Assembly (NCBI GenBank): GCA_016869375.1
Contig: VGEH01000030.1
Coordinates: 1-36,298 of the forward strand
DNA from: Alphaproteobacteria bacterium
GTDB lineage: Bacteria; Pseudomonadota; Alphaproteobacteria; SHVZ01
Direction: 5' to 3'
DNA: 36,298 nucleotides
Made by a program: the position numbers and the translations under genes. Under the pieces are notes generated by a model. It searched no databases and was not told the origin of the DNA. It saw only the letters and a program-made list of their open reading frames with translations. This document shows positions 1,591 through 9,403 of the stretch, piece by piece. How positions within the stretch are numbered: position 1 is the first letter of the stretch; every line of letters starts with the position of its first letter.

Positions 1591-3114
1591 ATGACCCAGC
1601 CGACGCTCACCATCCGGCTCAATGCCGCCGACACCGTCGTCGTCGCCCGCGCCGACATCCTGCCCGGGACCAGCATTCCCGGCGAGAACACCGTCGCCAA
1701 GGGCCATATCCCGGCCGGCCACAAGATCGCCACTCAGCAGGTGGCCGAGGGCGAGCCGGTCCGGCGCTACGGCCAGATCATCGGCTTTGCCAGCCGCCCG
1801 ATCGCCGCCGGCGACCATGTCCATACGCACAACTGCGCCTTCCAGATGTTCGAGCGGCAGTACGAGTTCTGCGTCGAATCCAAGCCGACGCCTTATGCCA
1901 CCGGCGCCGCGCAGGCGACCTTCCAGGGCATCAAGCGCAAGGACGGCCGCGTCGGCACGCGCAACTACATCGGCATCCTGACATCGGTGAACTGCTCTGC
2001 GCATGTCGCCAAGCTGGTCGCGCGCAAGGCCGAGACGCTGCTCGAGCAGTATCCGAACGTCGACGGCATCGTCGCGCTGACCCATGGCCTCGGCTGCGGC
2101 ATGGCGGCCGAGGGCGACGGCATGGACGTCCTCCGCCGCACCATCGCGGGATATGCCGTACACGCGAATTTCGGCGGCATCCTGATCATCGGCCTGGGTT
2201 GCGAAGCGAACCAGATCGGCGGCCTCATGCGCGCGCATAACCTCAAGGACGACGCGTTCCTGCACACAATGACGATCCAGGAATCGGGCGGCTCGACCGC
2301 GACGATCAACAAGGCGCTGGCGGCGATCCGCGAGATGCTGCCGGTGGTCAACGACGTGAAGCGCGAGGCCGCTCCAGCGAGCCACATCACCATCGGCCTG
2401 CAATGCGGCGGTTCCGACGGCTATTCCGGCATCTCGGCCAACCCGGCGCTCGGTGCCGCGTCCGACATCCTGGTCCGCCATGGCGGCTCGGTGATGCTCT
2501 CGGAGACGCCGGAGACCTATGGCGCCGAGCATGTGCTGGTCCGCCGGGCGCAGAGCAAGGAGGTCGGGCAGAAGCTCGTCGACCTGATGCGCTGGTGGGA
2601 GGACTACACCGCGAAGAACAAGGGCTCGATGGACAACAACCCCTCGCCCGGCAACAAGGCGGGCGGGCTCACCACGATCCTCGAGAAGGCGCTGGGCGCG
2701 GCGACCAAGGGTGGCACCACCAACCTCGTCGATGTGCTGCAATACGCCGCACCGCTGAAGAACCGCGGCTTCAACTTCATGGATTCGCCGGGCTACGACC
2801 CGGTCTCGGCAACGGGGCAGGTGGCATCGGGTGCCAACATGATCTGCTTCACCACCGGCCGCGGCTCGGTCTTCGGCTGCAAGCCCGCGCCTTCGATCAA
2901 GCTCGCCACCAACTCGATGCTGTTCAAGCGCATGCCCGACGACATGGACATCAACTGCGGCACGATCATCGAAGGCTCGGAGACGGTCGAGGCCTGCGGC
3001 GAGCGCATCTTCAAGCTGATCCTCGACACCGCCTCCGGCAAGAAGACCAAGAGCGAGGAGATGGGCTTCGGCGAGGACGAGTTCCAGCCGTGGTCGATCG
3101 GCGCGGTGATGTAG
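1591..3114 (+). CDS. UxaA/GarD-family sugar-acid dehydratase
   Basis: A 507-residue protein in the altronate/galactarate dehydratase family, which removes water from hexonates or hexarates to give 2-keto-3-deoxy acids. The N-terminal 90 or so residues form a SAF-like domain (L-N-A-A-D-T-V-V-V-A-R ... I-A-A-G-D-H-V-H-T-H-N). The catalytic part begins near residue 105 with G-R-V-G-T-R-N-Y and has conserved cysteines and histidines (LTHGLGCG, IGLGCEANQ, LQCGGSDG, FTTGRGSVFGCKPAP) suited to a metal site. Its length matches UxaA (about 495) and GarD (about 523). It is followed after 15 nt by a 2-hydroxyacid dehydrogenase. Family membership is secure; the choice between altronate, galactarate or another acid is open. 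Confidence 0.88.
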   Translation: MTQPTLTIRLNAADTVVVARADILPGTSIPGENTVAKGHIPAGHKIATQQVAEGEPVRRYGQIIGFASRPIAAGDHVHTHNCAFQMFERQYEFCVESKPTPYATGAAQATFQGIKRKDGRVGTRNYIGILTSVNCSAHVAKLVARKAETLLEQYPNVDGIVALTHGLGCGMAAEGDGMDVLRRTIAGYAVHANFGGILIIGLGCEANQIGGLMRAHNLKDDAFLHTMTIQESGGSTATINKALAAIREMLPVVNDVKREAAPASHITIGLQCGGSDGYSGISANPALGAASDILVRHGGSVMLSETPETYGAEHVLVRRAQSKEVGQKLVDLMRWWEDYTAKNKGSMDNNPSPGNKAGGLTTILEKALGAATKGGTTNLVDVLQYAAPLKNRGFNFMDSPGYDPVSATGQVASGANMICFTTGRGSVFGCKPAPSIKLATNSMLFKRMPDDMDINCGTIIEGSETVEACGERIFKLILDTASGKKTKSEEMGFGEDEFQPWSIGAVM

Positions 3115-3129
3115 AGAGCCGGACGCAAG

Positions 3130-4086
3130 ATGACCAAGCATCCCGTGCTGCAGAACGGCCCGGTCTCCTATGCCGGGACGATGAAGAAGATCGATGAGCT
3201 GTTCGTCGCGCATAAGCTCTGGCTCGCGCCGGACAAGCTGGCGCTGGCGAAGAAGATCGGCCCCGAGATTCGCTGTGCCTTCACCAGCGGCCACGATCCG
3301 ATACCGACGCTGATCCTGGACGCGCTGCCGAACCTCAAGCTTGTGGCTTGTTTCGGGGTCGGAGTCGACGGCGTCAACGTTGCGGAGCTTGCGGCGCGCG
3401 GCATCGCCGTTACCAACACGCCGGACGTGTTGACCGAGGAGGTCGCCGATTTCGGCATGGCGCTGCTGCTCGCGACGGTCCGCCAAGTCGTGAAGGGCGA
3501 CCGTTATGTCCGCTCGGGTGACTGGGTGAAGAAGGGCAACATGGAGATGACCTGGTCGCTGACCGGCGGCAAGACCATGGGCATCATCGGCCTCGGGCGC
3601 ATCGGCAAGGCGATCGCCAAGAGAGCCGAGGCCTTCAATCTCAAGATCGCCTACCACGGCCGCAACCGGCAGCCGGACGTTTCGTACGCCTACTACGCCG
3701 ACCCGGTATCGCTTGCGAAGGAGTCGGACATCCTGATGGTGGTGACGCCGGGCGGCCCAGGGACGAAGCAACTCGTCAATGCCGCGGTGCTTGAGGCGCT
3801 GGGGCCGAACGGCATCTTCGTCAATATCGCGCGTGGCTCAGTCGTCGATCAGCAGGCGCTGGTCGCCGCGCTGAGGGATCGGAAGATTGCTGCGGCCGGC
3901 CTCGACGTGTTCGAGACGGAACCGTGCATTCCTGAAGGTCTGGTCGATATGTTGGACAACGTCGTGCTTCAGCCCCACCAAGCCTCGGCCAGCCACGAGA
4001 CGCGGGGGGCCATGGGCGACCTCATGATCGCGAACGTACAGGCCTTCCTCGAGGGCAAGCCGATCCTGACGCCCGTCAAGCCGTAG
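3130..4086 (+). CDS. D-isomer-specific 2-hydroxyacid dehydrogenase (glyoxylate/hydroxypyruvate reductase type)
   Basis: A 318-residue NAD(P)-dependent enzyme that interconverts 2-keto and D-2-hydroxy acids. The Rossmann motif GIIGLGRIGKAIA (151-163) is clear. The catalytic set of the family is present: Arg235 in NIARGSVVD, Glu264 in F-E-T-E-P and His283 in QPHQASASHETR. The ATG lies 15 nt after the dehydratase stop, so the two are almost certainly co-transcribed, pointing to reduction or oxidation of a keto-acid intermediate of the same pathway. It ends 22 nt before the convergent selenoprotein gene. I would not assign ghrA or ghrB without a phylogeny. Confidence 0.88.
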   Translation: MTKHPVLQNGPVSYAGTMKKIDELFVAHKLWLAPDKLALAKKIGPEIRCAFTSGHDPIPTLILDALPNLKLVACFGVGVDGVNVAELAARGIAVTNTPDVLTEEVADFGMALLLATVRQVVKGDRYVRSGDWVKKGNMEMTWSLTGGKTMGIIGLGRIGKAIAKRAEAFNLKIAYHGRNRQPDVSYAYYADPVSLAKESDILMVVTPGGPGTKQLVNAAVLEALGPNGIFVNIARGSVVDQQALVAALRDRKIAAAGLDVFETEPCIPEGLVDMLDNVVLQPHQASASHETRGAMGDLMIANVQAFLEGKPILTPVKP

Positions 4087-4108: not shown

Positions 4109-5317
4109 TTAGACCGGATTGGCCGCTTCGAGCAGGGCGACGCGCGCGCCGGGTACGAGCAGGCTGCCGCCGACGGCCTTGAAGGCGGCGACGTCGCTTG
4201 CCAGCGCCAGCGCACGGATCTTCAGCAACACCGCGCCGAGCGCTGTCCTCTCCCATAGCCAGTCCGCGAGCTGGCGGCTTGATGGCTTTGCGTTAAGCGA
4301 CGCGGCTTCGGTCCAGGCTGCCTTGAGATCGTCGGCGGCGAAGCGGAGCGCCTGCGCGGGGTTGAGAGCCGGGTTCGGGCTCTCGGCAAGAGCGCCCGAG
4401 AGCGCGGCGGCGGCGAGGTCTGCGGCGGTGGCGAGCGTCATGCCCGAGAGGCCGACCATGGTCCGCCCGCGTGCAGCTTCCGCCTCCCGATAGACCGGCA
4501 GGAGACGATCGAGTTCGGCGCGAAGCTCGACGCCGTCGATCGTCCCTCCGGGCCATACGAAGGGCGGGCGCCAGACCGGATCGTCGGCCGAGCGGGGCTC
4601 CTCCTCGGGGAAATCCTTGAGAATCGCAGGACCGTCGCGCCGCTCGAGGAGCGAGAGCGCCTGGCGGAGCACGCGCTCCTGGAATTCAGGCTCATCCGGA
4701 GAACCCAGCGGCCGGCCGAGCTGGAATGGGACCCACAGCGCGCGCGGCGGACGAATCTTTTCGCTGTGGAGGCGTATCAAGCTCACGACCGTCGTCGCGA
4801 TCCCGTGCGACTCGATCATGTGGGCGAGCGCGCTCACGGCGCGCGTGCAGAAGGGTCACACCGGAACCAGGATTGCGGCATCGACGCGGTCCGCCTTGAG
4901 CCTGCTGGCGATCTGGGAGGCGGTATCGTTCAGCAGCTTCGGGTCGTTCGAGCCCATGAAAGTGTAGTGCGTCGGCGACACCGAACCGATCACGCCGTCC
5001 TTCGCCAATCGATCCAGGTGGCGACGCGGCAGCGCGACCTCGAGATCCTGCTGCAGGCCCGTGCGGTCGAAGTTGATGGAGACGTGGCTGATGAGCACGT
5101 CAGAGTCAGGGAGCGCGTGTGGCACTTCGCGCCAGCCTGCGTCGCTCGGATGAAACACCGGGTCGCCGCGGCGGATCAGAGCGGCAGACGAGATGATCGC
5201 AATCCTGCTCTTCGCCAGCGGCGGCGGCTCGACCCAGGGTCGCTTCTCGTAGCTCGGGCACTCGATCTCGGCCAGGCGCGCACGCGAGGCGGCGTGCAGG
5301 TCAGTCAGTCGGACCAA
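4109..5317 (-). CDS. Selenoprotein of the GrdB/PrdB-like family, UGA (Sec) at codon 154
   Basis: Two open segments in the same phase, 5317-4859 (153 codons) and 4855-4109, are separated by one UGA at 4858-4856. Read through, they give a 402-residue protein with ILVPV-U-PFCTRAVSALAHM at the junction: Sec154-Pro-Phe-Cys157, a redox motif like that of the substrate-binding selenoprotein B of glycine/sarcosine/betaine and D-proline reductases. Residues on both sides look like one conserved family (SYEKRPWVEPPPLAKSR near 22-38; HVSINFDRTG near 99; RPPRALWVPFQLGRPLG soon after the junction). A hairpin after the UGA could be the SECIS. The TTG start at 5317 has GGAG six nt upstream. There are no grdA/grdC or prd partners in the window, so the role is unknown. 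It follows glpD and denD on the same strand. A sequencing error or Cys-to-UGA decay is the alternative. Confidence 0.8.
4828..4858 (-). promoter_or_regulatory. Candidate bacterial SECIS element
   Basis: Read on the minus strand, the UGA (4858-4856) is followed 11 nt later by a perfect 6-bp stem, GCGCGC (4844-4839) paired with GCGCGC (4833-4828), closing a 5-nt loop CGUGA (4838-4834). Two more pairs form below a 2x2 internal loop. The loop carries GU at nucleotides 19-20 after the UGA. SelB-recognised loops contain a GU at nearly this distance in E. coli fdhF, as I recall. In GC-rich DNA such a stem can arise by chance, so this is supporting evidence and not proof. Confidence 0.5.
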
Positions 5318-5337
5318 GAGCGGCTCCGTGAATCGAT

Positions 5338-5380
5338 ACCCGGGACAGCCTTCGCGACGACCCTAGCACCGCTCCCGGGT
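5338..5380 (-). repeat. 8-bp inverted repeat upstream of the selenoprotein gene
   Basis: ACCCGGGA at 5338-5345 and its exact complement TCCCGGGT at 5373-5380 are separated by 27 nt. They lie between the denD stop and the selenoprotein Shine-Dalgarno. The arrangement could be a regulatory hairpin or operator, or part of a weak terminator; there is no U-run. Function unknown. Confidence 0.35.
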
Positions 5381-5381
5381 G

Positions 5382-6362
5382 TCACGCGACCTTGACCATA
5401 TCCTCGTCGATGAACGCCTTGATGATCTCTTCGATGTTCGTGTCGGCCTTGAAGCCGAGTTTCTTGGCCTTGTCCCAGCCGACCGTGCCGGGCCAGGTCG
5501 CGACGATCTTCTGAATCACCGGATCCGGCACCCAGTCGATGCGGCTGACCGGCTCAGGCCCGGCGAGCTTCTCCATCGCCTTCACGATCTCGTCGATCGA
5601 ATAGGTGATCGCCGGCAGCATGCACGAGCGCCACGGCCCCCAGGCCTCGGCCTGCAGCTCATGCGCATGGATGAAGGCGTCGATCGTCCGGCGCGGGGAG
5701 AGGAACGCCATCTTCACGTCGCGCGTCACCGGGCACACGGCGCGCGTGCCCTGCAGCGGATCGCGGACGATCGAGGAGGCGAAGGTGGACGCCGCCTTGT
5801 TGGGCTTGCCGGGGCGCACGAAGATCGTCGGCAGCTTCAGCGAGCGGCCGTCGATGAAGCCCTTGCGCGAGTAGTCGTTGACCAGCATCTCGCCCATCGC
5901 CTTCTGCACGCCGTAGCTGGTCTGCGGCGTCTGGGGCGTGTCGTCGCTGATCGCCTTGTTGTACTCGCCGCCATATGTCGCGAGGCTCGAGGTGAAGACG
6001 ATGCGCGGCGTGTGCGGCAGCTTCCGCATCGTCTCGAGCACGGCGAGCGTGCCCTCGAGATTGACGTGGTAGCCGAGATCGAAATTCTCCTCGGCGCCGG
6101 CGCTGACCACGCCGGCGAGGTGGAAGACGCTGTCGGTCTCCTCGTCGATCAGCTTGCTCATCAGCGACTTGTCGGCGACGTCGCCGGTCGCTTTGGTGAA
6201 GCGCTTGTCGTTCGGGCCTTCCGGCTCGACCACATCGAACAGCGTCACCTTGGTGATCGCCTCGGGCTTGCCCGAGCGGCCGGTCAGCGTGACGTTGCCG
6301 GCGAGCCGGTGCGAGAGCTTCTTGCCGAGAAACCCGGCGGCGCCGGTGATGACGACCTTCAT
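5382..6362 (-). CDS. denD: D-erythronate dehydrogenase-like NAD-dependent SDR
   Basis: A 326-residue extended short-chain dehydrogenase. The N-terminus MKVVITGAAGFLGKKL holds the G-x-x-G-x-x-G NAD motif. Catalytic Y-x-x-x-K is in TSYGVQKAMGE, preceded by FTSSLATYGG. The block LKLPTIFVRPGKPNKAAS followed by conserved Arg/Pro residues is typical of the DenD group, which oxidises D-erythronate at C2 to 2-keto-D-erythronate. Its start codon directly follows the glpD stop with no gap, so the two are one transcript and probably translationally coupled. The other erythronate enzymes (OtnI, DenK/OtnK-type kinase) are not in the window, so the substrate is inferred from family resemblance. Confidence 0.78.
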   Translation of the reverse strand: MKVVITGAAGFLGKKLSHRLAGNVTLTGRSGKPEAITKVTLFDVVEPEGPNDKRFTKATGDVADKSLMSKLIDEETDSVFHLAGVVSAGAEENFDLGYHVNLEGTLAVLETMRKLPHTPRIVFTSSLATYGGEYNKAISDDTPQTPQTSYGVQKAMGEMLVNDYSRKGFIDGRSLKLPTIFVRPGKPNKAASTFASSIVRDPLQGTRAVCPVTRDVKMAFLSPRRTIDAFIHAHELQAEAWGPWRSCMLPAITYSIDEIVKAMEKLAGPEPVSRIDWVPDPVIQKIVATWPGTVGWDKAKKLGFKADTNIEEIIKAFIDEDMVKVA

Positions 6363-7874
6363 TCAGCCTCTCCTTGAGAACCAGTCGGCGATGGCGACCT
6401 TGGCCTTCGCATCCAGATGCAGCCCGAGTTTGGACCTGCGCCACAGCACATCCTCGGGCATCCTCGCCCATTCGCGTGTCACCAGATACTCAAGCTCGCG
6501 CTCGGTGAAACCATGGCCGAAGTCGTGGCCCAGGTCGGTCGCGGTCTTGGCGTCGCCGATCAGCCGCTCGACCTCGCTGCCGTAGGCGCGGGCGAGCCTG
6601 TGCGGCTCCGGCAGCCAGGGATGGCGCCGTGTGAGCTCGGCGAGGAAGGCGTCGAAATCGGCATTGGCGATGGCGCCGCCGGGAAGTGCGGCATCCTTGG
6701 TCCAGGCGCGCTCGCCGCGGCGGAGATGCGGCAGCAGCTTGTCGAGCGCGTGCTCGGCGAGCTTGCGGAAGGTGGTGATCTTGCCGCCGAAGATCGAGAG
6801 CAGCGGCGCTCCGCCGGAAGCGTCGAGATCGAGGTCGAAGGCATAGTCGCGTGTCACCTGGGAGGCGACCGCCTCGGCATCGTCATGCAGCGGCCTCACG
6901 CCCGCGTAGGACCAGATCACGTCCTCGGGCGAGACGCGCGTGCGGAAATGGCGGGTGACGACGTCGCAGAGATAGGCCGTTTCGGCGGACGAGATCGCGA
7001 CTTTGGCCGGGTCACCGTCGAACGGCTCGTCGGTGGTGCCGATCAGGCTGAAGCGGTCTTCATAGGGCAGAACGAAGACGATGCGCCGGTCCTCGTTCTG
7101 CAGGATGTAGGCCTGCGGCCCGTCATGCAGCTTCGGTACGACGATGTGGCTGCCCTTGATCAGGCGTACATGCTTCGGGCTGTTAGTGCGGACGACACTG
7201 CCCAGCACTTCGTTGACCCACGGACCGGCGGCATTGACCACGGCGCGCGCCGTGACCTCGTTGGTCGCGCCGGCTTCGTCGGCGAGACGCACGCGCCAGG
7301 CGCCGCTCTCGCGTTTCGCTTCCGTACAGCGCGTCCGCGTCCTCACCTCGGCGCCGCGGTCGGCAGCGTCGCGGGCATTGGCGACGACCAGGCGCGCATC
7401 GTCGACCCAGCAATCGGCATAGACGAAGGCGCGCGAGATGGTGGAAGAGAGCGGTGCGCCGAAGGGATGCGTCTTGGTGTCGATTGCGTAGGAGCCCGGC
7501 AGCTTCTCGCGGCCGCCAAGGTGGTCGTAGAGGAAGAGGCCGAGCCGGATCATCCAGGCAGGCCTCAAATGCGGCCGGTGCGGCAGGACGAAGGACAGCG
7601 GCTTGACCAGATGTGGCGCCATCCTGAGCAGCACCTCGCGCTCGATCAGCGCCTCGCGGACCAGCCGGAACTCGTATTGCTCGAGGTAGCGGAGCCCGCC
7701 ATGGATCAGCTTGGAGGAGGATGAAGAGGTGGCTGAGGCGAGGTCGCTGGCCTCGACCAGCAGCGTCCTGAGGCCACGGCCCTGGGCATCGCGGACGATG
7801 CCCGCACCGTTGATGCCGCCGCCGATGACGAGAAGGTCGTACAGAGATTGCCCCGCGAAGAACCCGCGCAGCAT
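6363..7874 (-). CDS. glpD: Aerobic glycerol-3-phosphate dehydrogenase (FAD)
   Basis: A 503-residue flavoprotein that oxidises sn-glycerol 3-phosphate to dihydroxyacetone phosphate at the inner face of the membrane and passes electrons to quinone. The FAD-binding motif DLLVIGGGINGAGIVRDAQG starts near residue 13, followed by the family signature SSSSSKLIHGGLRYLEQYEF (about 48-67) and by AVVNAAGPWVN mid-protein. The C-terminal domain after about residue 390 is the helical GlpD cap. It is divergent from glpK with only 41 nt between start codons. No Shine-Dalgarno is visible before the ATG at 7874, so a leaderless or very short leader is possible. It is followed without gap by denD. Confidence 0.95.
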   Translation of the reverse strand: MLRGFFAGQSLYDLLVIGGGINGAGIVRDAQGRGLRTLLVEASDLASATSSSSSKLIHGGLRYLEQYEFRLVREALIEREVLLRMAPHLVKPLSFVLPHRPHLRPAWMIRLGLFLYDHLGGREKLPGSYAIDTKTHPFGAPLSSTISRAFVYADCWVDDARLVVANARDAADRGAEVRTRTRCTEAKRESGAWRVRLADEAGATNEVTARAVVNAAGPWVNEVLGSVVRTNSPKHVRLIKGSHIVVPKLHDGPQAYILQNEDRRIVFVLPYEDRFSLIGTTDEPFDGDPAKVAISSAETAYLCDVVTRHFRTRVSPEDVIWSYAGVRPLHDDAEAVASQVTRDYAFDLDLDASGGAPLLSIFGGKITTFRKLAEHALDKLLPHLRRGERAWTKDAALPGGAIANADFDAFLAELTRRHPWLPEPHRLARAYGSEVERLIGDAKTATDLGHDFGHGFTERELEYLVTREWARMPEDVLWRRSKLGLHLDAKAKVAIADWFSRRG

Positions 7875-7915
7875 AATTAATCGGTCGTAGCGAAAATTCC
7901 ACGCTCGGAGAGGAC
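7875..7915. promoter_or_regulatory. Divergent glpD/glpK control region
   Basis: This 41-nt gap must serve both genes unless promoters lie inside the coding regions. It contains an A/T-rich block (TAATTAAT, about 7874-7881) that could be a -10 element for glpK, and GGAG at 7907-7910 as the glpK ribosome site. I see no convincing -35 hexamers, and no clear glpR-type operator can be assigned. Confidence 0.3.

Positions 7916-9399
<1,484 letters not shown>

Positions 9400-9403
<4 letters not shown>

Follow-up and report, generated by a model that had tools for sequence, protein, structure and literature searches.

Introduction

In reductases of the PrdB and GrdB types, the amino substrate is bound by a pyruvoyl subunit. 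The catalytic reach of the superfamily might be wider, given the proposal that a GrdB/GrdE-like pair breaks the C-F bond in fluoroacetate (PMC10838667), a precedent for activity beyond C-N cleavage. Selenoproteins with a UxxC motif (U, selenocysteine) labeled "proline reductase PrdB" have been reported from the oceans since 2005; in two surveys, they are the third most abundant family of the Sargasso Sea set, with 42 genes (PMC1088965), and comprise 235 members in the Global Ocean Sampling (GOS) data (PMC2398784). A search of the open-licence literature found no functional study of stand-alone PrdB-like proteins. Here we analyze a contig of 36,298 nucleotides (VGEH01000030.1, assembly GCA_016869375.1; hereafter the window) from an alphaproteobacterium of the SHVZ01 lineage, which carries on its minus strand a TGA-interrupted gene that almost certainly encodes one selenoprotein, with UGA154 read as selenocysteine (Sec). 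The best overall explanation of this gene, which we consider highly probable, is that it encodes a UGA-decoded, stand-alone selenoenzyme of the GrdB/PrdB superfamily with a selenolate chemistry inferred from its relatives.

The UGA-interrupted gene and its decoding

The window is part of a draft genome (G000; 4.98 Mb in 278 contigs, 89.6% complete) that contains one gene of this kind. As a preliminary description made from the sequence alone had observed, two same-phase segments are separated by a single TGA at codon 154, beyond which the frame runs for 248 more codons to a TAA (Table 1). The joined 402-residue product reads LVPV-U154-P-F-C157, and a mechanical open reading frame (ORF) finder breaks the gene into pieces of 153 and 242 amino acids, the fate that had been foreseen for it with routine callers.

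Table 1. Features of the selenoprotein gene and its immediate surroundings in the window
Feature	Position	Strand	Basis
Predicted selenoprotein coding sequence, 402 amino acids + TAA stop, TTG start	4109..5317	-	ATG/TTG starts of homologues agree
In-frame TGA, predicted Sec154 codon	4856..4858	-	Aligned homologues (see text)
Cys157 codon, partner of Sec154 in U-P-F-C motif	4847..4849	-	Invariant across 54/54 superfamily sequences
Probable ribosome-binding site GGAG	5324..5327	-	Read off the sequence
Selenocysteine insertion sequence (SECIS)-like hairpin	4824..4848	-	Frozen synonymous codons, compensatory pairs
Hairpin core stem GCGCGC-CGUGA-GCGCGC	4844-4828	-	Apical loop 17 nt past UGA
PrdB-homologous part (residues 24-235), alpha/beta domain, Sec at N-end of helix	4613..5248	-	Profile match, fold model, tree comparison
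Helical domain at the C terminus (residues 262-399), lacking in PrdB	4121..4534	-	Fold model; no Pfam match
denD, D-erythronate dehydrogenase	5382..6362	-	NF043036, 425 bits vs cut-off 325; 64 nt upstream, same strand

The continuity of the protein across the TGA, likewise proposed at the outset, is borne out by a PrdB profile match that crosses the codon and by full-length homologues (34-74% identity) that keep the TGA at the same position. In an alignment set of 36 proteins, codon 154 is TGA in 33 and a Cys codon, TGC or TGT, in three; homologues thus run through this position, whereas the preliminary description had named homologues ending there as evidence against Sec. A long homologue with the TGA is present in 29 of 385 alphaproteobacterial genomes, spread over 14 families. 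Within the source genus, three of the five other genomes have the gene, with the TGA retained and 70-74% identity (loci L019, L020, and L021 are contigs of G002, G003, and G005, not additional relatives); the gene was not found in G004, in which SelB is present, or in G006, in which SelB does not rise above the cut-off.

A 54-protein tree places the three Cys forms in a single clade nested within the Sec clade, and SelB above the cut-off was found in none of the genomes encoding them, a pattern consistent with loss of the Sec system followed by a switch from Sec to Cys. Conversely, SelB exceeds the cut-off in 27 of the 29 TGA carriers vs 27 of the 356 other genomes (Fisher p=3e-24, uncorrected for kinship).

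The source genome itself encodes SelA, SelB, SelD, and tRNA-Sec, the machinery whose absence would have spoken against the original assignment. Contig C80 carries tRNA-Sec (77.6 bits; identified by ARAGORN as SeC with anticodon TCA), selB (442 bits vs a cut-off of 242), and selA (601 bits vs 268), and selD is found on contig C165 (288 bits vs 125). Moreover, C80 encodes a second selenoprotein, the formate dehydrogenase alpha subunit FdnG, with an in-frame TGA of its own. Several independent lines of evidence support the prediction that the ribosome inserts Sec at UGA154 using the cell's own SelA, SelB, SelD, and tRNA-Sec, with decoding probably guided by a hairpin immediately 3' of the UGA.

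The C80 locus (L017, 3-9824) comprises, in minus-strand order, fdnG, fdnH, probable fdnI, probable fdhE, selA, selB, tRNA-Sec, and an integrase-like ORF; the TGA of fdnG corresponds to U228 of the translated stretch. The position of the integrase-like ORF beside tRNA-Sec suggests that an element was inserted at selC.

A bacterial SECIS element is a hairpin that immediately follows the UGA, with its loop 16-37 nt away and a G near the start of the loop. The loop CGUGA of the predicted hairpin lies within this distance, and the structure is conserved with compensatory pairs. Just 3' of the TGA, each of four consecutive residues is encoded predominantly by a single synonymous codon, namely Thr158 by ACG (29/33), Arg159 by CGC (28/29), Ala160 by GCC (33/33), and Val161 by GTG (29/33), each with p<0.0005; among the other well-conserved columns, only Ser77 and Val145 show comparable synonymous bias, and in the Cys homologues the codon set at 158-161 is not maintained. 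Furthermore, hairpin pairs 15-31 and 16-30 display compensatory A-U and U-A changes, and 88% of the cells are paired, compared with at most 63% in shifted versions of the structure.

Relationship to PrdB and GrdB

The initial classification of the protein as GrdB/PrdB-like holds at the level of the superfamily and fails for PrdB or GrdB proper. PF07355 matches residues 34-151, before the TGA, with 24.5 bits, above its gathering cut-off of 22. The PrdB model (TIGR04483), the top NCBIfam match of each of the 36 proteins in the alignment set, spans the TGA (residues 24-235, E=8e-26) with 91 bits vs a curated cut-off of 300, and the GrdB models (TIGR01917/TIGR01918) align over profile positions ~221-421 only, with 35-37 bits vs cut-offs of 602 and 65. 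With the best model, PrdB, at 91 of 300 bits, no curated family claims the window protein. In the tree, which includes two PrdB sequences only and in which long branches meet, the ~400-residue group forms one clade (support 100/99) apart from both PrdB and the ~300-residue relatives. The sequence around Sec in this clade is PV-U-P-x-C-T-R-A-V (UPFCTR in the window protein), as opposed to GUGTCH in PrdB. PrdB and GrdB proper were accordingly rejected as identities, given the scores under the cut-offs, the separate clade, the different Sec motif, and the additional C-terminal domain; the protein belongs to an unnamed alphaproteobacterial clade of the GrdB/PrdB superfamily with an extra helical domain.

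The clade shares with PrdB the homologous core, the position of Sec in the UxxC motif, His78, Asp91, Pro97, Glu169, and the Pro191-Arg192 pair; unlike PrdB, it lacks PrdA, and its hosts are Alphaproteobacteria, not anaerobes that ferment amino acids. Compared with GrdB, GrdF, and GrdH, the window protein corresponds to the C-terminal half, including UxxC, but lacks the first ~220 residues of a family whose full-length members have ~430, and has no detectable GrdE partner. The short (~300-residue) PrdB-like proteins of other proteobacteria possess the same core with a (C/U)PxCHQ motif, Sec in some and Cys in others, but constitute a separate, fully supported clade with ~28-36% identity and mostly Cys among the tree rows. 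An example from Haematobacter, annotated as "glycine/sarcosine/betaine reductase selenoprotein B family protein", has no adjoining Prd or Grd genes. Two to four PrdB-like genes per genome are present in the alphaproteobacterial genomes G145, G471, G565, G572, G651, G721, G727, and others; in such multi-copy genomes (also at loci L036 and L041) the short forms are included, many with an in-frame TGA.

With the marine "PrdB" selenoproteins, the clade has in common pfam07355, UxxC, and occurrence in aquatic bacteria, and it is probably part of that pool. The preliminary statement that no such role had been described was too strong in this respect. In the accessible portions of the survey reports (PMC1088965, PMC2398784), however, these proteins appear under the family label, with proline reduction taken as their function and with neither a partner analysis nor a division into clades; in the open-licence literature searched, the present clade and its reaction are undefined.

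The high-confidence fold model (predicted local distance difference test, pLDDT, 92.4; predicted template modeling score, pTM, 0.91) shows an alpha/beta domain with Sec at a strand-helix junction. Pro97, Cys/Sec154, Cys157, Glu169, Thr175, Pro191, Arg192, and Gly201 are invariant in all 54 superfamily sequences, and His78 (52/54), Asp91, and Gly172 nearly so. Searches of the PDB with the protein sequence and with the profile yielded no match, and Foldseek against the PDB none below E=0.017, so that no solved structure is at hand from which the substrate could be deduced.

Genomic context

Outside the source genus, the recurrent neighbors of the gene are selA, selB, and selD, and SelA recurs together with a protein in which a pyridine-nucleotide-disulfide-oxidoreductase is fused to a SelD-type domain. 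Of the 27 SelB-positive carriers, 12, belonging to 7 families, have the gene no farther than ~16 kb from selB, vs 0.24 expected if placement were random. In the source genus, the sel locus is located elsewhere. There, a DenD-like sequence lies directly upstream of the selenoprotein gene in the relatives as well, and a polyol/sugar-acid region (window positions 1591-4086 and 5382-9403) encoding a galactarate/altronate dehydratase-like protein, a 2-hydroxyacid dehydrogenase, D-erythronate dehydrogenase, GlpD, and a glycerol kinase-like protein is mostly retained. The sugar-acid neighborhood noted earlier is therefore real for the window and the genus, but does not define the family: denD and the sugar-acid genes are neighbors in the genus only, and a molybdenum hydroxylase neighbor is found mainly in one family. 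Near the Cys forms (L101, L102, L103), genes for a TauD-type dioxygenase and sulfatase-like proteins occur in place of sel genes. Between denD and the selenoprotein start in the window (5318-5381) lies an inverted repeat, CCCGGG...CCCGGG, that was not seen in the genus relatives.

The proposed reaction and alternative explanations

The absence of a partner, already suggested by the preliminary description, extends from the neighborhood to whole genomes: the source genome and 33 other carriers (34 genomes searched) contain no member of PF09338, the family covering PrdA and GrdE, and the same search detects PrdA in a Terrisporobacter plasmid used as a positive control. This strongly supports the prediction of a stand-alone selenoenzyme that has no pyruvoyl partner, and the lack of that subunit makes an amine an unlikely substrate. 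By analogy with GrdB and PrdB, we hypothesize that the Sec selenolate would attack an electrophilic center, either carbon or a heteroatom, in a small acid or a related substrate, forming a selenoether, or a selenyl-sulfide with Cys157, that could then be released by thiols such as thioredoxin. The position of denD upstream makes a link to hydroxy acids (erythronate/galactarate) possible in the source genus. We go further and propose, with about even confidence, that these proteins represent a new selenoenzyme class, in which a GrdB/PrdB-type selenolate enzyme without the pyruvoyl subunit, and with a helical domain of its own, reductively cleaves a non-amine substrate in free-living alphaproteobacteria and matters enough to the cell that several lineages keep its gene next to selA, selB, and selD.

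Several points weigh against the overall explanation of the gene given above. The substrate and the reaction are extrapolated from relatives, and at 89.6% completeness of the source draft a partner could in principle have escaped detection in that genome. Two TGA carriers, G703 and G637, lack SelB above the cut-off; in G703, a contig ends within a fragment of SelB. Relatedness is not fully corrected for in the tests on codons, base pairs, and co-occurrence. Finally, the hairpin by itself does not exceed shuffled sequence in stability (z=0.62), so the evidence for a SECIS element is conservation, not energy. In G637, the long-group TGA gene (C98:1572-2762) resides on a contig of 6 kb, possibly foreign or a contaminant.

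The principal alternative, which we regard as a real but lesser possibility, is that U-P-F-C is a thioredoxin-like redox pair and the protein a thiol-disulfide or peroxide oxidoreductase rather than a C-X bond reductase. The fold model, in which UxxC opens a helix that follows a strand, is compatible with such a role, and a redox function is assumed for many UxxC selenoproteins (PMC13188914); in addition, an AhpD-like peroxidase-related gene (TIGR01926) is found near the selenoprotein gene in L072, L074, and L019, representing two families, and glutathione S-transferase genes are neighbors in four loci, all of family f177. However, the thioredoxin family is neither matched by sequence nor among the best fold-search hits, and His78, Arg192, and Glu169, common to the clade and PrdB, suggest a substrate pocket as opposed to a protein-disulfide surface.

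A D-proline (or glycine-type) reductase subunit operating with an unrecognized partner appears improbable. PrdB is indeed the best family match, and the marine relatives bore the proline reductase label (PMC1088965, PMC2398784), but the deficit in score, the replacement of GUGTCH by UPxCTR, the separate clade, and the lack of a PF09338 protein in all 34 carriers searched, with a working control, all argue against it.

Still less credible is the notion that translation truly ends at the TGA, or that the codon reflects a sequencing error or a decaying pseudogene, with the halves separate or dead: although the assembly is a draft of 278 contigs and an ORF finder splits the gene, the same TGA recurs in independent genomes of 14 families, the protein is conserved on both sides of it, the synonymous codons 3' of it are frozen, and its carriers tend to encode SelB. 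That a changed code or plain readthrough gives UGA some other amino-acid meaning can be dismissed almost entirely, for nothing beyond the open frame speaks for it, whereas UGA is a normal terminator in the window (e.g., for denD), tRNA-Sec with anticodon TCA is present, and the homologous residue is Cys.

Conclusions

The present analysis defines a widespread selenoprotein clade whose genes standard callers split, and which surveys probably filed as "proline reductase" even though none of the 34 carriers searched has the needed partner. The tie to sel genes suggests a reason, besides formate dehydrogenase, for the retention of the costly Sec system by many alphaproteobacteria. Furthermore, since a single clade contains both Sec and Cys versions, the reason for retaining Sec can be tested directly.
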